A stretch of DNA of 64,000 nucleotides from Anaerolineae bacterium. GTDB taxonomy: Bacteria > Chloroflexota > Anaerolineae > Promineifilales > Promineifilaceae. The translations under genes were made by a program, and so were the position numbers. Every line of letters begins with the position of its first letter. Within the stretch, counting starts at the first letter, position 1. Below the pieces are notes generated by a model, which saw only the letters and a list, made by a program, of their open reading frames with translations, made no database searches and was not told the DNA's origin. Below, in pieces: positions 21,968-33,542 of this stretch. The stretch is from assembly GCA_020848035.1 (NCBI GenBank), contig JADLAX010000065.1, positions 62,001-126,000 of the forward strand. Direction: 5' to 3'.

Positions 21968-22043
21968 CTTCAAAATACCCTCCGCTTAACCCCTTTTTGC
22001 CCAAAATGATAACTGACTCTCCTTCCCCTCTTGGCGATGCGTG

Positions 22044-22049
22044 TATAAT
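22044..22049 (+). promoter_or_regulatory. Putative -10 box of LuxR/AAA regulator gene
   Basis: TATAAT lies 16 bp before the chosen ATG, so the transcript would have a very short leader. No convincing -35 hexamer is seen. Confidence 0.4.
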
Positions 22050-22064
22050 CTGCCCATAGGAATT

Positions 22065-24647
22065 ATGGGACTTCTCGAACGTGGTGACGCACTCAATAAG
22101 CTGGAACAGGCCCATCAGCTGGCGGTGGCGGGCAACGGCCGTTGCCTGCTCATCAGCGGCGAGGCGGGCATTGGCAAAACCAGCCTGGTCGAGCAGTTCA
22201 TCCCCCGCCAGGCCAGTCGGGTGCTGTGGGGTGCCTGTGATGCGCTGTTTACGCCACGGCCGTTAGGTCCGCTGTACGATATGGCCGCCCAACTGCGCGG
22301 CGAACTGCTGGCCTTGCTCGAAGGTGTGCCCAACCGTCCCGCCATCTACGCCGCCTGCCTGAAAGAGTGTCAGACCCCCACCCTCCTTGTGTTTGAAGAC
22401 ATTCACTGGGCCGATGAAGCCACCCTCGATTTGCTTAAATATCTGGGACGGCGCATCCAGCAAACCTGCTCCCTGATCATCGCCACCTACCGCGACGACG
22501 AGCTGGGCTCGCAGCACCCCCTGCGGCTGCTGCTGGGCGACCTGGTGCGCCATCCGGGGGTGGAACGGGTGGGGCTGACGCCGCTGTCGTTAACGGCCGT
22601 ACGCCAGCTCGCCAAAAATTACCGGGGCGACATCACCCAGCTGCACCGCCTGACGGCGGGCAATCCATTTTTTATCAACCAGGTGCTTACGTCCGGCGAA
22701 GCAGGCATTCCGGCCACCGTGCGTGAGGTGGTGCTGGCCCGCGTCTCGCGGCTTTCCCTGTCCGGGCGGGCGGTGCTGAATGCCGCAGCCGTCATTGGCC
22801 AGCGCATCGAGCCGTGGCTGCTGAAAGCCGTCACCCAGGCGGAGGCCGACGCCGTGGAAGAAAGTCTGGAGCTGGGCATTCTGCTGGTGCAGGGCGATTA
22901 TTTTGTGTTTCGCCATGAGCTGGCGCGTCAGGCCATCCTCAACCAGATTGGGCCGCACCAGCGCACTTTTTTGCACCAGGCCGTTTTGGACGCGTTGAGA
23001 GTGTCATCCGCAGGCAAAAAAGATCTGGCGCGGCTGGCCCATCATGCCGAAGCCGCTGCCGACAAAGAAGCCATTTTGGCCTACGCCCCGGCGGCGGCCC
23101 GGCAGGCCGAGGCGGCCCGCGCTCACCGTGCGGCCGTTGTGCTTTATGAGCTGGCCCTGCAGCACGCCGATAATCTGCCCGCAGCCGAACGCGCGCAGCT
23201 GCTGGATGAGTTTGCCGTGGAGTGCGACATCGTCGATCGCCGTCCTGATGCCATTGCCGGGCACCAGCAGGCGATTGCGCTGTGGGAAGAAGCCGGTCTG
23301 CCGCTCAAAAAAGGGCGCAGCATGACCAGTCTGTCGCTGCTGCTGCAAATTACCGGCCGCAAAACGGAGGCTGAAGACGTCAATCGCCAGGCGCTGGAGA
23401 CCCTTGAGCCGCTGGCCCCCAACCCCCAGCTCATTTATGCCTACAACATGGAGGCGTGGCTGAGCCTGGGCAATGGCGACAGTGAGCGTGGGGTGACGAT
23501 GGCCGAAAAAGGCATTGCCATCGCCCAACATTATGAGGAAGAAGAAGAACTGCCGCGCCTGCTGGAAATTGCCGGGCTGTGCTGGCTGTACCTGGATCAC
23601 ACAAAAGGTACGGAATATTTAGAACAAAGCCTCATGTTGGCGCAAAAGTTTGACCATGCGGTGCGGGCGGGCAATGTTTTTGCCAATCTTGCCTCGATCT
23701 ACGTTGATTTTCACCAGTTCCGGCGGGCTGAACAGACGTTTGAAGAAGGGCTGCCCTTTGCCCAGGATCGCCATTTGGACTCGGTGCGGGCGTACATGGA
23801 CGGCTGGCTGGCGCTGCTGAAGCTGTACCGTGGTGACTGGGCTGCGGCCGAAGCCATTGGCCGGGAAGCGGTGGCCCGGCCGAGTACGTCGCCCGGGCGG
23901 GGTCCGGCGCTGGTGGCGTTGGGCCGGTTGTACAGCCGCCGGGGTGATGCAGAGGCAACGGCCGTTCTCGATGAGGCGCTTGATGTGCTGCTGAAACAGG
24001 GCTTCCGCCAGCGCGAGGGCATGATCCGCGCCGCCCGGGCCGAGCTTGCCTGGCTGGCCGGTGATGCCGAGAAGACACGAGCCGAGGTGCAGGAAGTGTT
24101 TGATCTGGCGCTCAGCCATCATCATGGTTGGTATGTGGGCGAGCTGGCGTTCTGGCTGTGGCGGGCTGGTGCTGCGGTGGATTTGCCGGAGTGGGCAGCT
24201 GAGCCTTTTGCCTTGCAGATCGCTGGTGATTGGCGCGGGGCAGCGGCGGCCTGGGCTGAGATGGGCTGCCCCTACGAGCAGGCCCGGGCTTTGGCCGACG
24301 GCGACGGCGACGCGCAAAAGCAGGCGTTGGCCCTGTTTGAGCAGCTGGGGGCGCGTCCTATGGCCGAGCGGGTGCGTCAAGCGCTGCGCCGCGCCGGGGT
24401 AGAGACGATCCCGCGCGGTCCCCGGTCTACCACCCGGGAAAACCCGTTCCAGCTGACCAACCGCCAGGTGCAGATTTTGGCCTTGCTCACGGAAGGCCTG
24501 ACCAACGCCGAAATTGCGGCGCGTATGCATATTTCGCCCAAGACGGTGGACCACCATGTTTCGGCCGTTTTGGGCAAGCTAAATGTTTCCTCGCGTGAAG
24601 AAGCGGCCGTTTTGGCCCGCACCTCCCCCGAATTACGCCAAAAATAG
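22065..24647 (+). CDS. AAA-ATPase LuxR-family transcriptional regulator
   Basis: The start is ATG 22065 with AGGAATT directly upstream. An in-frame GTG at 22041 falls inside a likely promoter. The 860-residue protein has Walker A GEAGIGKTS at residues 32-40, Walker B LLVFEDIHWADEATLDLLKYL, a helical TPR-like middle (about 300-760), and a C-terminal LuxR helix-turn-helix (LTNRQVQILALLTEGLTNAEIAARMHISPKTVDHHVSAVLGKLNV). It belongs to the large LuxR ATPase group whose ligands are mostly unknown. It ends 134 bp before the first small-peptide gene and lies next to the surface-protein island, which it may control. Confidence 0.92.
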   Translation: MGLLERGDALNKLEQAHQLAVAGNGRCLLISGEAGIGKTSLVEQFIPRQASRVLWGACDALFTPRPLGPLYDMAAQLRGELLALLEGVPNRPAIYAACLKECQTPTLLVFEDIHWADEATLDLLKYLGRRIQQTCSLIIATYRDDELGSQHPLRLLLGDLVRHPGVERVGLTPLSLTAVRQLAKNYRGDITQLHRLTAGNPFFINQVLTSGEAGIPATVREVVLARVSRLSLSGRAVLNAAAVIGQRIEPWLLKAVTQAEADAVEESLELGILLVQGDYFVFRHELARQAILNQIGPHQRTFLHQAVLDALRVSSAGKKDLARLAHHAEAAADKEAILAYAPAAARQAEAARAHRAAVVLYELALQHADNLPAAERAQLLDEFAVECDIVDRRPDAIAGHQQAIALWEEAGLPLKKGRSMTSLSLLLQITGRKTEAEDVNRQALETLEPLAPNPQLIYAYNMEAWLSLGNGDSERGVTMAEKGIAIAQHYEEEEELPRLLEIAGLCWLYLDHTKGTEYLEQSLMLAQKFDHAVRAGNVFANLASIYVDFHQFRRAEQTFEEGLPFAQDRHLDSVRAYMDGWLALLKLYRGDWAAAEAIGREAVARPSTSPGRGPALVALGRLYSRRGDAEATAVLDEALDVLLKQGFRQREGMIRAARAELAWLAGDAEKTRAEVQEVFDLALSHHHGWYVGELAFWLWRAGAAVDLPEWAAEPFALQIAGDWRGAAAAWAEMGCPYEQARALADGDGDAQKQALALFEQLGARPMAERVRQALRRAGVETIPRGPRSTTRENPFQLTNRQVQILALLTEGLTNAEIAARMHISPKTVDHHVSAVLGKLNVSSREEAAVLARTSPELRQK

Positions 24648-25086: not shown

Positions 25087-25115
25087 TGTAATTCATTTTG
25101 GAGCAGATAGATACT

Positions 25116-27905
25116 ATGAAGCGTATTGGTACTTTTTGGATTGTTTTGCTGGTCATTTTTGGCCTGGCGTTTGTGTTTTTTTTGCCGCTGGTGCTGGCCC
25201 AAAGTGAAGGGCGTTCTGAGGCAGTGGTGAGTGGTACGGCCGTTCCCCCCACCGTTGCCCCGCCCACCCTCGTCACCGATATCAACACGGCCCCGCTTGG
25301 CTCGGAGCCTTACGGCTACTTTAAGCTGGGTAACCAGATTTACTTCAGCGCCAGAGACGATCAGCATGGGCGAGAGCTGTGGGTGAGGGACGAAACCGTG
25401 CCCGGTGCCCGGCTGGTCAAAGATCTCTACCCCGGCCCGGTGCACAGCGATGCCTACCCGATGCAGTCGCTTAATGGCCAGCTGGTGCTGCTGGCCACCG
25501 ATGAAACGCACGGCCGTGAATTGTGGCTGAGCGATGGCACCGACAGCGGCACGGTTTTGCTGAAAGACATCAATCCCGGCCCGCAATCCTCTTACATCCC
25601 GACGATGGTGGTGTTTAACAACCAGCTGGTGTTTGCCGCCTACGATGGCAGCCACGGTGTTGAGCTGTGGATTAGCGATGGCACCACTGATGGCACGGTT
25701 CTGCTGGCTGATATTTTTCCGGGCGCGTTTGCGTCGGATCCCGAAAACTTTGTGGCCATGGGCGGGTATCTCTACTTCAAGGCCTCCGATGGGGTGCACG
25801 GTACCGAATTGTGGCGCACCGATGGCACATCCGGCGGCACTTCCCTGGTTGTTGATCTGAATCCAGGGATCACCTCCTCTTTGTCGTCTGATGAAATTGT
25901 GACCAACGGCAGCCTGCTCTTTCTTTCGGCCGAGGGCAGCAGCAGCAGTGGCTATGAATTGTGGGTTTCTGATGGCACCAGCGCCGGAACCGATCAGATC
26001 GAAATCCGGCCGGGAGCCTCTGATGCTTCGCCAGTTTATAAAACGGTCATGGGCAACGGCATTGTTTTTGCCGCCAACGATGGGGTGAACGGCGGGGAGC
26101 TGTGGCGTAGTGATGGCACCCCCGGCGGCACCTTTATGATTAAGGATGTTTATCCTGGCCCTTCCTCATCCAGTGTGCAGAGAATTGTGGTGGCTGACGG
26201 CCAGATTTTCTTTTCGGCGTATGAAAACACACATGGCCGAGAGCTGTGGGTGTCGGATGGAACGGCCGTTGGCACCCAACTCGTGCTAGATATTGACCCA
26301 GGCACCGCCAGCAGCTCACCGGTTGACTTTTCGGTGGTCAACGACCAGCTCTTTTTTACGGCCGTTACCAGCAGCACCGGCCGTGAGCTGTGGATCAGCG
26401 ACGGCACTTCTGCCGGGACTACCCTGGTCCAGGATATTTTCCCCGGCAGTCAGTCCAGCGGACTTGTCAGCTTGAAGCCGCTGGCCAACTCGCTGATCTT
26501 CACCGCCAATGATGGGGTGCATGGCAAGGAGATGTGGCGCAGCGATGGCACCCCGGCCGAAACCAAGTTAGTGGTCGATATTGCCGACTCCTTTACAGAC
26601 AACGCCTGGCCCTTCGACATCACCCCGTTTGGTGATGGGGTGATGTTCCGTGGCGATGATGGCGTACACGGCTACGAGCTGTGGTTTAGCGATGGCACAG
26701 CGACCGGCACGGAGATGGTGGCCGACATAAATCCTGGTCCCGAATACAGCGGCACCGGCAGTTCCACGTATGCCGAACTGGACGGCACTTTCTACTTTAC
26801 CGCCCTTACCCCGGCCAACGGCACCGAGCTGTGGCGTACCCAGGGGGACGCGGCCACCACGCAGTTGGTCAAAGATGTTCGTCCCGGCATTGTTTCGGCC
26901 GACATCGTGGAGCTGATCACCTTTGGCGCGTACGTCTACTTTGCGGCCAATGATGGCGTGTTTGGCCAGGAACTGTGGCGCACCGATGGTACGGCCGTAA
27001 ACACCACCCGCTTCACCGATATCTACCCCGGTCTATCTGGCGCTGAGCCGTTTGACTTAACCATCGTTGGCTCGCGCCTCTTTTTTGTGGCCAACGACGG
27101 CGTGCACGGCGCGGAGCTGTGGTCGACCGATGGCACACCCTCTGGCACCGCCCTGGTGAAGGACATCAACGCCGATCCAGACGATTCAGACATTCGCTAC
27201 CTGACGGCCGTTGCCGGGCGGCTTTACTTTGCGGCCAATGATGGCAGCACCGGCTGGGAGCTGTGGACCTCGGACGGCACCAGCGCCGGCACCACGCGGG
27301 TTATGGACATTTACCCCGGCACCGACAGCGCCTACCCGGATAAATTAACGGCCGTCAACGACCTGCTCTACTTCTCGGCTGATGATGGCGTGCATGGGCA
27401 CGAACTATGGGTCAGCGACGGTACCCAGGCCGGGACGCGGCTGGTGAAAGATATTGATGACGGTGTGTCAGGCTCAGATCCGGATTGGTTAACGGCCGTT
27501 AACGACCGGCTCTACTTCTCGGCTGACGACGGCACACACAACCACGAGCTGTGGGTCTCCGACGGCAGCGAGGCGGGGACGTACATGGTGAAAGACATTT
27601 TTGTAGGCTCAGATGGCGGCTACCCCTATCTGATCACCCACCTGACGGAAGGCACCATCCTCTTTGCGGCCCTGCGCGACGATCCCACCGGGGAGGAGTT
27701 GTGGATTTCGGACGGTACCGAGGCCGGCACTGTGCTGCTAGCGGACATGACGCCGCAGCCTTACGAATCATTCTCTCCATCGGAAATTGTGGTGGTCAAC
27801 GGCCGGGCCTTTGTCGACGGCGAACATCCAATCCTGGGCGGCGAGCTGTGGCTTGTGGAATTCGGCCGTACTTACCAGGTTTATTTACCCAACATTATCA
27901 AATAA
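25116..27905 (+). CDS. Secreted ELWxxDGT-repeat protein with YLP C-terminal tag
   Basis: The start is ATG 25116. An in-frame TTG lies at 25098. A signal peptide (KRIGTFWIVLLVIFGLAFVFFLPLVLAQ) ends near residue 28. About 17 units of the ELWxxDGT repeat follow, each roughly 45-50 residues, for example GRELWLSDGTDSGT and GVELWISDGTTDGT, with PG and YF(S/A)A(D/N)DG between them. The repeat fills the protein and should form a beta-propeller or solenoid. The C-terminus is VYLPNIIK, matching the ends of three other proteins in this island. It is a surface or exported protein. The ligand is unknown. Confidence 0.9.
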   Translation: MKRIGTFWIVLLVIFGLAFVFFLPLVLAQSEGRSEAVVSGTAVPPTVAPPTLVTDINTAPLGSEPYGYFKLGNQIYFSARDDQHGRELWVRDETVPGARLVKDLYPGPVHSDAYPMQSLNGQLVLLATDETHGRELWLSDGTDSGTVLLKDINPGPQSSYIPTMVVFNNQLVFAAYDGSHGVELWISDGTTDGTVLLADIFPGAFASDPENFVAMGGYLYFKASDGVHGTELWRTDGTSGGTSLVVDLNPGITSSLSSDEIVTNGSLLFLSAEGSSSSGYELWVSDGTSAGTDQIEIRPGASDASPVYKTVMGNGIVFAANDGVNGGELWRSDGTPGGTFMIKDVYPGPSSSSVQRIVVADGQIFFSAYENTHGRELWVSDGTAVGTQLVLDIDPGTASSSPVDFSVVNDQLFFTAVTSSTGRELWISDGTSAGTTLVQDIFPGSQSSGLVSLKPLANSLIFTANDGVHGKEMWRSDGTPAETKLVVDIADSFTDNAWPFDITPFGDGVMFRGDDGVHGYELWFSDGTATGTEMVADINPGPEYSGTGSSTYAELDGTFYFTALTPANGTELWRTQGDAATTQLVKDVRPGIVSADIVELITFGAYVYFAANDGVFGQELWRTDGTAVNTTRFTDIYPGLSGAEPFDLTIVGSRLFFVANDGVHGAELWSTDGTPSGTALVKDINADPDDSDIRYLTAVAGRLYFAANDGSTGWELWTSDGTSAGTTRVMDIYPGTDSAYPDKLTAVNDLLYFSADDGVHGHELWVSDGTQAGTRLVKDIDDGVSGSDPDWLTAVNDRLYFSADDGTHNHELWVSDGSEAGTYMVKDIFVGSDGGYPYLITHLTEGTILFAALRDDPTGEELWISDGTEAGTVLLADMTPQPYESFSPSEIVVVNGRAFVDGEHPILGGELWLVEFGRTYQVYLPNIIK

Positions 27906-28012
27906 AGGCTCTTTGGGAATTCAGGGGGTTTACAGCCCGTGGTGCGTGAAACGTGACCAGAGGGCCATCACGTTTCACGCCAGACCCCACGAAATCCTGA
28001 AGACCCATCAAA
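27904..28012 (-). repeat. 110-bp structured repeat built on CGTTTCACG, copy B
   Basis: The reverse complement reproduces 7457-7575 in order (GGGTCTTCAGGATTTC, GGCGTGAAACGTGA, TCACGTTTCACGC, GGGCTGTAAACCCCCTGAATTC, AAGAGCC). Its end overlaps the stop region of the ELWxxDGT gene. Confidence 0.85.
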
Positions 28013-28034
28013 TAAATTGGTTCAGGAGCATTGC

Positions 28035-29747
28035 ATGAAAAGCAAACACACGACTTTTCGCCCTGGGTGGCTGATGGGTTGGCTGGTGGTGGGTGTGGTG
28101 GCGGTAACGGCCGTTTTCATCGCCCCCGTGCACGCCACCGACATCACCGTTACCACCACGGCCGACGAAGTGAACAGCGACGGCGACTGCTCGCTGCGCG
28201 AGGCGGTGATTGCGGCCAATGGGGATACGGCCGTTGATGCCTGCCCGGCGGGGAATGGGGCCGATACCATCATCCTGCCCGCCGGGGAATTCATCTTCAG
28301 CCTGGCGGGCAGCAGCGAAAACGGCGCGCTCACCGGCGACCTCGATATTTTGGACGATTTAACCATCATCGGTGCCGGGGCCAATGACACGTTTATCAAC
28401 GCCAATAATCTGGATCGTGTTTTTGAAATACTCAACAGCAGCCAGGTGCGGCTGGTGCGGTTGACGGCGCGCGGTGGTAACAGCGGTATCGTATCTGGTG
28501 GCAATACGCGCCTCTCCGGTGGTACGACGTTGACGCTGGAATTTGTGCGCATTAGCGATACGGCCGTTGATACCTCAGCCGCCCTCTACGTCATAAACGG
28601 TGCCACGCTAAATATTTATACCAGCCGCATCGAAAACAATCTCTCTGGCGGTATTTTTGTGCAGGGCGGTGGTGTGGTCGTTGTCTATAACAGCAGCATT
28701 AGCGGCAATGTCAATGCCGTGGGCAGCGGGGCGGGATTGTCTTCCGGCGGTACCGTTACCCTGGTGAATAGTACGCTAAGCGGCAACAGCGCGGGATTTT
28801 CTGGCGGGGCTATCAACAGTTCAGGAACTTTCAATTTATACAATGTGACGGTTGCCCAAAATACCGGAGGCACATCGGGTGTTGCTGGCAGTGGGGCGGG
28901 AATTAGCCTGGTGGGCGGAACGGCCGTCCTGCGCAACAGCATCGTGGCCGACAATGTGTTGGCGACCGGTGGTCCAAGCGTGGATTGTGCCGGTACCATC
29001 GTCAGCGAAGGGTATAACCTTATTGAAACTCAGACGGGCTGCACGATTACCGGCGATACCACCACCAATATTCTCGGCCAGGATCCGATGCTGGACGTGC
29101 TCGGTGGTAATGGCGGCGGCACGCAAACCCATGCGCTGCTGGCGGGCAGCCCGGCCATCAATGCGGCCAATCCGGGTGGCTGCCTTGATGGCCATAACAC
29201 CCTGCTCACCACCGACCAGCGGGCCTACCGGCGCAATGGCACCTGCGACATCGGCGCATTCGAGGCCAACTCGCCAGGCCCCGCCACGCCAACCCCCACC
29301 CTGACGGCCACCGCCACCAACACGCTCCCGCCTACCGCCACGGCCACGCCAACCCTCACCAGTACGTCTACCGCCACACCAACCCGTACCCCCAGCCCCA
29401 CCGGGACAACGGTGCCGCCAACCAGCACGTCTACAGCTACCCCCACGCGCACGCCCAGCCCAACTGGAACAACAGTGCCGCCCACCAGCACGTCTACGGC
29501 CACACCCACGCGCACGCCCAGCCCAACTGGCACTTTCTTACCGCCCACCAGCACGCCGACGCGTACGCCCAGCCCAACTGGTACCCTCGTGCCGCCCACC
29601 AGCACCGCCACCGCCACCCCGACGCGGACCGCTGGCCCCACCGCCACCGCCACCGCCACGCTGCTGCCGGGCGTCACCCCCACCGCCACCCCGGACCCCT
29701 CGCAAACGGCCGATTTCTTTGTCTATCTGCCGTTTGTCATCCGGTAG
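28035..29747 (+). CDS. Secreted CSLREA beta-helix protein with Thr/Pro stalk and YLP tag
   Basis: ATG 28035 has CAGGAG six bases upstream. A signal peptide ([24 protein letters not shown]) ends near residue 36. Next comes the CSLREA entry module ([19 protein letters not shown] ... [10 protein letters not shown]), then a right-handed parallel beta-helix region (about 90-370) with repeated SGGxxxxNSxxxxN turns. A long Thr/Ser/Pro linker of tandem [11 protein letters not shown] units (about 420-560) forms a stalk. The end is VYLPFVIR. This layout suits a surface-attached adhesin or polysaccharide-binding protein. No catalytic lyase residues could be identified. Confidence 0.9.
29341..29640 (+). 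repeat. In-frame tandem repeat encoding the [18 protein letters not shown] stalk
   Basis: About five imperfect units of 54-60 bp (ACCCCCACGCGCACGCCC-type) stand in a row inside the CSLREA gene. Copy number is likely to vary between strains by slippage or recombination. Confidence 0.85.
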
Positions 29748-29786
29748 CCCGTTGTGGATTCGCGCCGACAGGCAGCTTTATGGAAA

Positions 29787-29850
29787 TAGATGTTAGTGGC
29801 TGGTGGTTAGTGGCTTGGACTAGCCACTAGCCACTAACAACCAGCTACTT
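29787..29850. repeat. Word-type hairpin: TTAGTGGCTGG / CCACTAGCCACTAAC
   Basis: Arms of GTGGCTGGTGGTTAGTGGCT face AGCCACTAGCCACTAACAAC. The element fills the spacer before the next CSLREA gene, ending at AAGGAG (29853-29858). Confidence 0.65.
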
Positions 29851-29869
29851 ATAAGGAGTATTGGAACGT

Positions 29870-31210
29870 ATGAATGCCAAAAACCTTTTTCACCTGGGAC
29901 TATTGTTGTTTTTGCTGGCCGTGGGCGGCTGGGGCGCTACGGCCGTTTTCACCCCCCTCGTTTACGCCAACACCATCACCGTCACCACCACCGTCGACGA
30001 GGTGAACAACGACGGCGACTGCTCCCTGCGCGAAGCGGTGCTGGCGGCCAATGGGGATACGGCCGTTGACGCCTGCAGCGCGGGCAGTGGGGCCGACGTC
30101 ATCACCCTGCCCCCAGGCACCTACACCCTCAGCCTGGCCGGCACGGGCGAAAATGCCGCCCAAACCGGCGACCTGGACCTGGTAGGCAGCGTCACCATCA
30201 ACGGTGGCGGCATGCACAACAGCGTCATCGACGGCGCTGACCTTGACCGTATTTTTGATGTCCTGAGCAGCGCCCAGGTCACCCTCAACGATCTCACCGT
30301 GCGCAACGGCAGCTCGACCTCCGGCGGGGGCATCAATGTGTCCGGGGCGCTCACCTTAAGCGACAGCCGCGTCACGGCCAACACCGCGACCAGCTTTGGT
30401 GGTGGCCTTGCCGCCAGCGGCACGGTCACCGTCACCCACAGCCGCATCGATGGCAACCAATCCACCGGCGGCGGCGGCATCTTCATCAGCTTTAACCCGG
30501 CGCTCATCCGCAACAGCGAAATCAGTGGCAATACCGTCACCGGCGTCGGCGGGGGTGTTTACAGTTCTGGCGCGCTGGACCTGGTGAACAGCACCCTCAG
30601 CGGCAATATGGCCGGAGACGGCGGCGGTGGTCTGGCCGTCGTGGAAAGCAACAACAACCACCTCTACAACGTCACCATCAGCAACAATACGGCCGATTCC
30701 GACAGCGACGACGACGGCGACGGCGGTGGCATGCTCCTGGCGGGCGGCACAACGGCCGTTAATATCGTCGTCAGCGGCAATACCGACAACAGCCCCGGCG
30801 AGAAACGCCCCGATTGTTCCGGCTCGCTAAACAGCCAGGGATACAACCTCATTACCACCATCACCGGCTGCACCATCAACGGCACCACCACCGGCAACCT
30901 CACCGGGGTGGATGCCCTTCTGGGACCGCTGCAAAACAACGGCGGACCCACCCACACCCACGCCCTGTTGGCGGGCAGCCCGGCCATCAATGCCGGTAAT
31001 CCCGGCGGCTGCCGCGACCAAGACGATTTACCGCTGGGCACCGACCAGCGCGACTTTAGCCGCCCGGCCAACGGCAGCCCGCTGTGTGACATGGGGGCAT
31101 ACGAGGCCGGGGCCAGCGAAGCGCCCACGCCGACGCCAACCGCCACCCTGGTGCCGACCATTGCCTTTACCCCAGACCACTGGAACTACCTGCCGCTCAT
31201 TCAAAAATAA
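29870..31210 (+). CDS. Secreted CSLREA beta-helix protein with YLP tag
   Basis: The start is ATG 29870 with AAGGAG 11 bases upstream. TTG 29861 is closer to it but less likely. The 446-residue protein has a signal peptide ending near VYA, the CSLREA module ([31 protein letters not shown]), and a beta-helix region rich in NSxISGN turns. [13 protein letters not shown] loop may bind calcium. The C-terminus is NYLPLIQK. It is a close paralogue of the preceding gene ([10 protein letters not shown] is identical), but with a short TPTPTAT linker in place of the long stalk. Confidence 0.9.
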
Positions 31211-31216
31211 CGTTTA

Positions 31217-31249
31217 GGTGCGACGCACTTCTCACGTGCGTCGCACCTG
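31217..31249 (+). repeat. GTGCGACGCAC hairpin
   Basis: AGGTGCGACGCAC, a seven-base loop and GTGCGTCGCACCT form a perfect 13-bp stem between two genes. No T-run follows, so it is a structured repeat or RNA-stability element rather than a standard terminator. Confidence 0.7.
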
Positions 31250-31270
31250 CTAAAAACAGGAGAGTAAACC

Positions 31271-31696
31271 ATGAAACCGATTTTGATTTTGCTCAGTTTG
31301 CTGGGCCTGACGGCCGTATTCCTCACCGCCTGCGAAGGCGAGCCAGACCCCATTCCCGCGACCATCGCCGACCTGTGCACGATGGAAGCAAACACCTGGG
31401 TGCTCGTCGAGGGCCAATTTAGCCTGCCCACCTTCCTCACCTGCCAGGAAGGCAAATGCCGCCTCAACTTCGGCGGGGGCGGCAGCGGCATCATGGCCGA
31501 CATGCGCGCCAGCGATAATCCCCGGGCCAACATGCTCCAAATGCCGCCAGAACAGTACACCGCTGCCGACCTCAGCTTTGTCTTGGATGACGAAACGCTG
31601 GCCGATGGCAATACGGTGGTGTCGGTGATGGGGCGGGTGAAACGGCCGTCTGACACCAGCTGTTACCTCGATGTGTCATCGGTGAGCTTGCCCTAA
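31271..31696 (+). CDS. Small lipoprotein of unknown function
   Basis: ATG 31271 has AGGAGAG nine bases upstream. The 141-residue protein has a lipoprotein signal peptide (KPILILLSLLGLTAVFLTAC, lipobox LTAC). The mature part has four cysteines besides the lipid-modified one (DLCTMEA, FLTCQEGKC, TSCYLDV), probably two disulfides, and an N-terminal VLVEGQFSLP strand suggestive of an OB-fold or beta-barrel. It lies in the surface-protein island, but has no YLP tag. Confidence 0.78.
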   Translation: MKPILILLSLLGLTAVFLTACEGEPDPIPATIADLCTMEANTWVLVEGQFSLPTFLTCQEGKCRLNFGGGGSGIMADMRASDNPRANMLQMPPEQYTAADLSFVLDDETLADGNTVVSVMGRVKRPSDTSCYLDVSSVSLP

Positions 31697-31724
31697 CATC
31701 ATTTACCCACAGGAGGACCGTCGG

Positions 31725-31997
31725 ATGCCGCGCTACCTTGTCGAACAAACCTTTCCCGATGGGCTGCCGCTGTCGCTAGATGAGCGCGGCGCCCGGCTGT
31801 GCCTCCACATCATCCACAACAACGCCCTCGACGACGTGACCTGGATCATTTCCTACGTCACACCCGATCGGCAAAAGGTCTTTTACATTTGTGATGCCCC
31901 ATCGCCAGAAGCGATTCGTCGCGCCGGGCTGCGCAACCAACAGCCCATCGATCGCATCACCGAGGTGCGCATTCTTGACCCATATTTTTTATTGTAG
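31725..31997 (+). CDS. DUF4242-type small protein
   Basis: The 90-residue protein resembles the DUF4242 (SCO4226-like) ferredoxin-fold family: MPRYLVEQTFPDGL, then VTWIISYVTPDRQKVFYICDAPSPEAIRRAG and ITEVRILDPY. SCO4226 binds nickel in Streptomyces, but metal ligands are not evident here. AGGAGG lies a few bases before the ATG. It sits 28 bp after the lipoprotein gene and 10 bp before the next, which suggests co-transcription. Confidence 0.75.
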   Translation: MPRYLVEQTFPDGLPLSLDERGARLCLHIIHNNALDDVTWIISYVTPDRQKVFYICDAPSPEAIRRAGLRNQQPIDRITEVRILDPYFLL

Positions 31998-32006
31998 GCG
32001 GAACTT

Positions 32007-33542
32007 ATGAATGGCTTTACTGAATCAACCACAACTTTGACCCCCGGCGCTTCTCGGCCGAGAGAGGTGAACAAGTTCATCTCTCGAATGACGGCCGTTG
32101 CCCTGACCGTACTTCTGACCTTGCTGGGGGCGGTTCATCTGCTGCGCAGCCTGGGTCACATCCAGACCGCCGCCGCGCTGCCAGCGGCCACCTTCACCGT
32201 TAGCACCCTCAACGACAGCGGCGCGGGGTCGCTGCGCCAGGCCATCCTCAATGCCAACGCCACCACCGGTCCAGACGTGATCCAGATTACGGCCGTTGGC
32301 ACCCTCCAGCTTCTCAGCGCCCTGCCGATCATTACCGAGACGGTCACCATTCAGGGGCCGGGCATGAGCCAGCTGGCCGTGGCGGGTGGCAGCGGCTTTC
32401 GTGTGTTTGAGAGTACGGCCGTTCCCCTCACCGTCACCGACCTCACCGTGCAAAATGGCGCGCCCGCCAGCGATCCCGGCGGCGGCATTCGCAGCCTGGG
32501 CACGCTCACCCTCACCAACGTAGCCGTTTTAAGCAACACCACCCCGGTGCGCGGCGGTGGTGTATTCGTAGACGGGGCAGCGTGGATTGTGAACGGCCGT
32601 TTCGAGAACAATCGCGCCCTGGGCGGCACGGGCGGTGGGCTGCAATCCAACGGCCGTGCCCTGGTCACCGGAACGCTGTTCATCAGCAATACATCAACGG
32701 CACAGGGCGGTGGGGCGCATATAGCGACCTACTCCGTGGTGCGTGATGCCTATTTTGAGCAAAATCGTTCGCTCTTGGCCAACGGCGGCGGTCTGTACGC
32801 CAGTGGCATTGTCACCCTGGTTAATGCGTCCGTCATCAGCAACACCGCGTTTAGTGATGGCGGCGGCATGCTCGCTTTTGGTCAGGCCCACGTCTACAAC
32901 TCTCGCTTTATCAACAACGTGTGCGCCGACCAGGGCGGCGGCATGTATGTAGGCAGCTTCCTCACGGTGAAGCAAACGGCGTTTGTGGGTAATCGGGGCG
33001 GGCGCGGCGGCGCGATTTTCCACGGGGCGCTCAACGGGCTGCTGGAAAACAGCTTGCTGGCTGAAAACACGGCCACAAATCTGGGCGACCAGATGTTTAT
33101 CAACAGCACGTACCCGGTGACGCTGAACCATGTAACGGCCGTTGGCACCACTGGCGGCATGGGCACAGGTTTCCACGTCACCAACACCCCGCTGCTCATC
33201 ACCAACACCATCATCGCCAGCCACACGCTGGGCATCAACAACCTCAACGGCAGCGTGACCGAGGAGTACAACCTCTTTTTTGGCAACGGCACCGACATTC
33301 AAGGCGCGGCTTCGGGAGGTGCCCACACCCTCACGGATGATCCCCGGTTTGCTAATCCAGCCGCCGCCAACTACCACCTGCGCTATGACTCGCCCGCCAT
33401 CGACGCGGGCAGCGATACCGGCCTTTTGCTGGATTACGACGGCGATGTACGGCCGCGTGATAACGGTTTCGACATCGGCTTTGATGAAGGCAGCTTACTG
33501 CCGCCGCCCAAAGAACTTTACCTGCCGCTTGTAACCCGTTAA
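32007..33542 (+). CDS. Secreted beta-helix protein with YLP tag
   Basis: The 511-residue protein has a late signal peptide (hydrophobic TAVALTVLLTLLGAVHLL at about 29-46) after a polar N-terminus of 28 residues. It has a CSLREA-like entry without the exact motif (TFTVSTLNDSGAGSLRQAILNAN) and a beta-helix with GGG(I/V)xxxG and NNxxxGGG turns through about residue 470. The C-terminus is LYLPLVTR. It is the fourth YLP-ending protein of the island. Confidence 0.88.
   Translation: MNGFTESTTTLTPGASRPREVNKFISRMTAVALTVLLTLLGAVHLLRSLGHIQTAAALPAATFTVSTLNDSGAGSLRQAILNANATTGPDVIQITAVGTLQLLSALPIITETVTIQGPGMSQLAVAGGSGFRVFESTAVPLTVTDLTVQNGAPASDPGGGIRSLGTLTLTNVAVLSNTTPVRGGGVFVDGAAWIVNGRFENNRALGGTGGGLQSNGRALVTGTLFISNTSTAQGGGAHIATYSVVRDAYFEQNRSLLANGGGLYASGIVTLVNASVISNTAFSDGGGMLAFGQAHVYNSRFINNVCADQGGGMYVGSFLTVKQTAFVGNRGGRGGAIFHGALNGLLENSLLAENTATNLGDQMFINSTYPVTLNHVTAVGTTGGMGTGFHVTNTPLLITNTIIASHTLGINNLNGSVTEEYNLFFGNGTDIQGAASGGAHTLTDDPRFANPAAANYHLRYDSPAIDAGSDTGLLLDYDGDVRPRDNGFDIGFDEGSLLPPPKELYLPLVTR

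Follow-up and report, generated by a model that had tools for sequence, protein, structure and literature searches.

A short C-terminal tag on exported proteins of Chloroflexota as a probable sorting signal, with a PorU-like C25 peptidase as its possible reader

A 64,000-nucleotide stretch of an Anaerolineae genome (the window; contig JADLAX010000065.1, positions 62,001 to 126,000) contains four plus-strand open reading frames, at 25098-27905, 28017-29747, 29861-31210 and 32007-33542, in which the last seven codons before the stop specify YLPNIIK, YLPFVIR, YLPLIQK and YLPLVTR. These endings agree with those given in a first-pass annotation of the same DNA, which regarded the shared ending as a sorting or anchoring signal. 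From our comparative analyses, we conclude that this tag is very probably a signal for sorting proteins after their export. The main argument is that it is interchangeable with known anchoring signals and avoids proteins with lipid or transmembrane (TM) anchors, which therefore points to a role in sorting or attachment. Our complete reading, to which we assign a probability of roughly 0.45, is that the tag is a minimal C-terminal sorting or attachment signal, perhaps read by a C25 peptidase resembling PorU of the type IX secretion system (T9SS).

The genome of the window (G000; 7.65 Mb, 104 contigs) was searched with a DNA pattern for the tag, TAY YTN CCN NNN RTN NNN MRN TRR, using the reversed pattern as a control. 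This yielded 32 matches versus 4 for the control, and when read back, about 28 of the 32 were genuine ends of long open frames. The tagged frames encode unrelated exported proteins, such as proteases, beta-helices, propellers and a DUF1501 protein, and the domains found beneath the tag comprise S8 subtilase, M12B reprolysin, FG-GAP, DUF11, PD40 and CBM96. The same picture emerged from a second genome (G061). The consensus of 53 register-true tails from six genomes is [VLIT]-[YFW]-L-P-[LIMFA]-[VI]-x-[RK]-stop, with Y/F enriched at position -10 and R or K as terminal residue in 49 of the 53. The exact C-terminal register that had been claimed is very common but not absolute: the six-genome sample contained nine more tails that were off register, and a few additional C-terminal residues are tolerated, because extended tails such as YLPLVLRP, FLPVVLRP, YLPFILRN and FLPLILAGGGS exist. 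In a set of 1,637 proteins, some of which had been selected from the surroundings of tags, the 7-mer was found 58 times at the C-terminus versus nine times at 635,175 internal positions, the latter corresponding to 0.02 expected occurrences at the C-termini. Together with the 32 versus 4 matches in the genome, this indicates that the tag is not a product of chance. The Y, L and P codons vary freely among synonymous forms. Selection therefore acts on the peptide and not on a DNA element, and a role as DNA element or terminator was rejected.

The tag hardly occurs outside proteins with a signal peptide, is very rare on lipoproteins and is absent from proteins with a C-terminal TM helix. The gene caller and signal-peptide detector were home-made and crude, and the counts given here are approximate and the start positions uncertain. 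In the regions of G000 around tags, a signal peptide was detected in 20/23 tagged proteins versus 79/263 other proteins (p = 1e-7). When proteins were divided into classes, the strict tag was carried by 45/297 proteins with a signal peptide, 1/123 with a weak signal peptide, 1/55 lipoproteins (wider lipobox), 0/81 proteins with a C-terminal TM helix and 11/1081 without a detected signal. Six of these last 11 have an export signal by eye, and the other five have a truncated or miscalled start. The possibility that the motif is as frequent at the C-termini of cytoplasmic proteins is contradicted by these data, with 45/297 signal-peptide proteins versus 12/1,204 without a clear signal peptide. 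A looser version of the tag occurred on 0/45 lipoproteins versus 62/285 other signal-peptide proteins lacking a C-terminal TM helix (p = 5e-5); its two matches among C-terminal TM proteins appeared to be chance-like. The tagged DUF1501 protein starts with MNRRQFLG, a Tat-like signal (NRRQFLG).

Choice-of-anchor Q proteins of tag-rich genomes (e.g. G000, G168, G222 and G380) terminate in the tag, and those found elsewhere terminate in LPNTG followed by a TM helix (G126), in SLH (G112), in a stalk with a TM helix and RR (G120) or in LLPVCG-TM-RRR (G011). Window proteins 2-4, in which the family model NF041518 was matched, have the architecture of the choice-of-anchor Q family, with the domain followed by interchangeable sorting signals. 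The occupation of this position by the tag in place of LPxTG-TM, SLH and TM-Arg tails, together with the link to export signals, supports the proposed signal function, as far as can be read from sequence. SLH was found only in G112 among 40 genomes and was rejected as a general alternative signal. The tails in G120 (L153; Thr/Pro stalk with PCAAAAM-TM-RRMG) and G011 (L172; LLPVCG-TM-RRRW) were not matched to a named family here. Relatives of the ELWxxDGT proteins in Chryseobacterium and Epilithonimonas have tails that, by eye, resemble the C-terminal domains (CTDs) of T9SS substrates.

An initial survey, covering 400 genomes of the phylum, was noisy and was repeated with the stricter pattern TAYYTNCCNHTNRTNNNNMRNTAR. 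This gave 24 matches versus 0 for the control in G000, 191 versus 8 in family f25 (22/23 genomes), 40 versus 1 in f35 (7/7 genomes) and 7 versus 0 in f24 (one genome), with 31 matches in f5 and 27 in f61. Most other families, e.g. f2, f23, f30, f33, f53 and f56, were at or below the control. In 100 genomes from the phylum to which an Acidimicrobiales record belongs, an even stricter pattern gave 1 match versus 3 for the control. G110 is Herpetosiphon aurantiacus DSM 785; its C2 carries a C25 gene at the coordinates of pHAU01, and f35 therefore represents the Herpetosiphonaceae and the phylum the Chloroflexota. The tag is frequent in several families of Chloroflexota and does not rise above background elsewhere. 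The mention in the first-pass annotation of similar endings on other Chloroflexota surface proteins is in line with this, and the tag is not restricted to four recent paralogues, being present on unrelated proteins and in many genomes.

Known sorting enzymes were considered as readers of the tag. Sortases (PF04203) were equally common in tag-poor (31/35) and tag-rich (23/25) genomes, and neither a match nor a first-look candidate was found in the tag-rich genomes G168 (97% complete) and G343 (95% complete). Being unlinked to tag richness and missing from these two genomes, sortase was rejected as the reader. The same observations largely refute the idea that the tag is a noncanonical substrate, in which sortases of the class A-F type read LPx[VI] in place of LPxTG. 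The LP-x-beta-branched core does resemble LPxT, most tag genomes carry several sortases and a Herpetosiphon sortase gene directly follows a C25 gene, but the motif lacks a subsequent TM helix or basic tail, and we consider this explanation very improbable. Exosortase (PF09721) was absent from 29/30 genomes, being present only in G011, and was rejected. Rhombosortase was rejected as well, since none of 20 genomes gave a score over the model cut-off and only generic rhomboid-level scores were obtained. No single family stood out among the genes adjoining tag genes in six genomes, and a conserved neighbouring processing gene was likewise rejected.

The gene whose phyletic profile follows the tag encodes a PorU-like C25 peptidase, which was found in 15/15 tag-rich versus 0/5 tag-poor genomes (Fisher p = 6e-5, kinship ignored; the tag-poor f61 members G142, G385 and G330 were left out of these 20 genomes). 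Finding such a gene had been proposed as a check in the first-pass annotation, which knew of no described processing system. Indeed, no prior description of the tag, or of PorU or T9SS in Chloroflexota, was found in the open-access PMC literature, but the C25 peptidase now provides a candidate. The NCBIfam PorU models were the best matches of five C25 sequences (1e-51 to 1e-83), all below the cut-off (NF033707 scores of at most 280 bits versus 420). The best match in the PDB was PorU (6za2, 4.7e-37), and gingipain R2 was matched at 1.8e-31. His749 and Cys796 (L122 numbering) align with the GHG and TC positions of PorU and are invariant in the five sequences. Several of the C25 proteins have tag-like ends themselves: ALPLVQR (L122), LYLPLTIADY (L288), LFLPIIFH (L290), VWLPLVGWE (Haur_5106) and VWLPLVGRE (Haur_5046). 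The L291 sequence was interrupted by masked bases, and an AlphaFold2 (AF2) model of a C25 protein was not used (mean predicted local distance difference test score, pLDDT, 42.7).

Some gene arrangements around C25 genes recur. In G110, a PorU-like C25 gene is followed on the same strand, after about 114 nt, by a sortase gene (L288 1-4038), and the coordinates at G070:C241 19403-21790 indicate the same pair. G061 encodes, in succession on one strand (L122 6101-12232), a tagged protein of 743 amino acids, a DUF11-like protein with ILPNTG-TM-RRRR and the PorU-like C25 peptidase. A similar set, with a sortase in addition, is present on pHAU01 (L292, Haur_5062-5066).

In the T9SS, PorU removes the CTD by cleavage and conjugates the C-terminus thus exposed (PMC11969387, PMC4560394). 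By analogy with this enzyme of Bacteroidota, we infer attachment, cleavage, a role of C25 and an acceptor, as follows. Proteins would leave the cell by Sec or, as seems to apply to at least one of them, by Tat, and would end in a short disordered tail. A factor on the outer face would recognise this tail and route or attach the protein to the surface of the cell. As reader, the PorU-like C25 cysteine peptidase would be the likeliest candidate, an assignment that we make tentatively; it would cut at the tag and hand the new C-terminus to a surface acceptor. The acceptor would probably be a cell-wall polysaccharide or lipid, because Chloroflexota lack lipopolysaccharide (LPS). A tag-bearing C25 enzyme would be its own passenger, as PorU bears a CTD, which it retains (PMC11285876). 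In its most specific form, which is more speculative, the proposal is a T9SS-independent system of Chloroflexota in which a PorU-like C25 transpeptidase may read a tag of about 10 residues and join proteins exported by Sec or Tat to a surface glycan or lipid.

Several observations weigh against a reader of this kind. The C25 comparison comprises just five tag-poor genomes, and since the genomes share descent, the statistical tests overstate their independence. The C25 protein of L289 lacks a C-terminal tag; it has an internal LWLPLIM instead. Because most C25 proteins are tagged, they may be mere cargo. G372, which lacks C25, retains loose LP[VL]V-type tails, which may be tags in decay since the reader was lost. 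As the CTDs of the T9SS are domains of at least about 40 residues (PMC11969387), we do not claim homology between tag and CTD. In the L289 protein (1-2661), the tag-like stretch AHQLWLPLIMTQ is located upstream of the PorU-like region and is possibly a pseudosubstrate. In G372, which belongs to the family of the window genome, the tails of choice-of-anchor Q proteins are LPVVLGGNE, VPVVWAQ and LPVVIGE (L181, L183 and L185), two of which follow a Thr/Pro stalk.

If the C25 proteins were indeed just another tagged cargo, the tag could be an uncleaved motif for non-covalent retention, held by a component of the wall, S-layer or sheath. This would fit with conservation up to the last residue, with the occasional tolerance of extra residues, with the tagging of most C25 proteins of known end and with the lack of a prominent family beside tag genes. 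This reading would, however, require a receptor for a short degenerate peptide, and no receptor is a candidate so far; C25 presence matches the tag in 20/20 genomes examined. We regard retention of this type as unlikely, though worth serious consideration. A second alternative is a targeting tail for a dedicated export machine that releases proteins to the medium or sheath. For the T9SS CTD, translocation depends on the extreme C-terminal residues and extension is allowed (PMC11285876), which is reminiscent of the RP and RN tails described here. According to a published description, however, Chloroflexota have no LPS outer membrane (PMC10608941), so that no second translocation step is evident, and the avoidance of lipid- or TM-anchored proteins suggests retention rather than release. 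Such a targeting function is improbable. Compared with these alternatives, we prefer a sorting or attachment signal perhaps read by the PorU-like peptidase.

The four window proteins differ in their domains; all features are on the plus strand. Protein 1 (25116..27905) is an exported protein with 17 ELWxxDGT repeats (TIGR04534), an N-terminus, MKRIGTFWIVLLVIFGLAFVFFLPLVLAQ, that is signal-peptide-like by eye and with the crude detector, and its tag at 27882..27902. Protein 2 (28017..29747) contains CSLREA, a beta-helix and a choice-of-anchor Q domain (29082..29267, residues 356-417; NF041518, E = 1.3e-18), which is separated by a Thr/Pro stalk (29274..29717, limits approximate) from the tag at 29724..29744. 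Protein 3 (29861..31210) has the same domains, with choice-of-anchor Q at 30911..31108 (NF041518, E = 1.4e-22) and the tag at 31187..31207. Protein 4 (32007..33542) has beta-helix/POMP repeats, a marginal choice-of-anchor Q match and its tag at 33519..33539. Proteins 2 and 3 share 49% identity, with protein 4 as a remote relative of both and protein 1 unrelated. Proteins 2 and 3 also gave weak matches to the rhombotarget A model, and a library scan of the four proteins gave no match to T9SS CTD models.

The AF2 model of protein 3 shows pLDDT values mostly of 80-98 for the beta-helix and below 50 for the tail, which starts at about residue 415 and contains the tag; this tail is predicted to be disordered. 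The hydrophobic, strand-like sequence of the tag could suggest an intramolecular element that caps the fold or forms its last beta strand, or else a remnant without sorting role. This is highly improbable, as the same type of tail is strongly conserved among unrelated folds, is disordered in the model and occurs behind long Thr/Pro stalks, from where it would be unable to pack on the domain. A small untagged lipoprotein (lipobox LTAC; 31271-31696) is encoded between proteins 3 and 4, and a large AAA_16/TPR/LuxR-type regulator (22041-24647) immediately upstream of the four tagged genes.

The tag, for which we found no matching NCBIfam model and no paper in the open literature, is present on as many as about two dozen surface proteins per genome in several families of Chloroflexota, that of Herpetosiphon among them, and would reveal a rule by which these bacteria sort their cell-surface proteome. 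Few C-terminal sorting signals that lack a membrane helix would be smaller. If the link with PorU is true, a PorU-type sorting enzyme would operate outside Bacteroidota and independently of an LPS outer membrane. The proposed attachment system would then be related to the PorU half of type IX secretion, or a precursor of it.

As in LPXTG/sortase systems, LP opens a short motif, a Thr/Pro stalk can precede it and the same slot behind choice-of-anchor domains is occupied. The tag differs from LPXTG in lacking the TM helix, as initially noted, and also T-G and the basic tail, with the protein ending at the motif; in its absence from C-terminal-TM proteins; and in its presence in the PF04203-lacking genomes G168 and G343. 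With PEP-CTERM/exosortase (PMC1569441), it shares a high number of C-terminal tags per genome on diverse exported proteins and a patchy distribution, but it lacks PEP, a TM helix and a basic cluster, and exosortase is missing from nearly all genomes. The tag resembles GlyGly-CTERM/rhombosortase (PMC3237569) in being a C-terminal tag on CSLREA-containing proteins, but has neither GlyGly nor a TM helix, and no rhombosortase exceeded the cut-off. The T9SS/PorU system is similar in that a C-terminal signal is present on many unrelated exported proteins, its extreme C-terminal residues, including a basic one, are important while extension is tolerated (PMC11285876), and a C25 peptidase itself bears the signal; the CTD and PorU were the T9SS parts compared. 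The differences are that the tag consists of about 7-10 disordered residues versus a beta domain of about 40-100 and does not match the CTD motif, that the NCBIfam PorU models remain below their cut-off, and that the hosts, by published description, have no LPS outer membrane.

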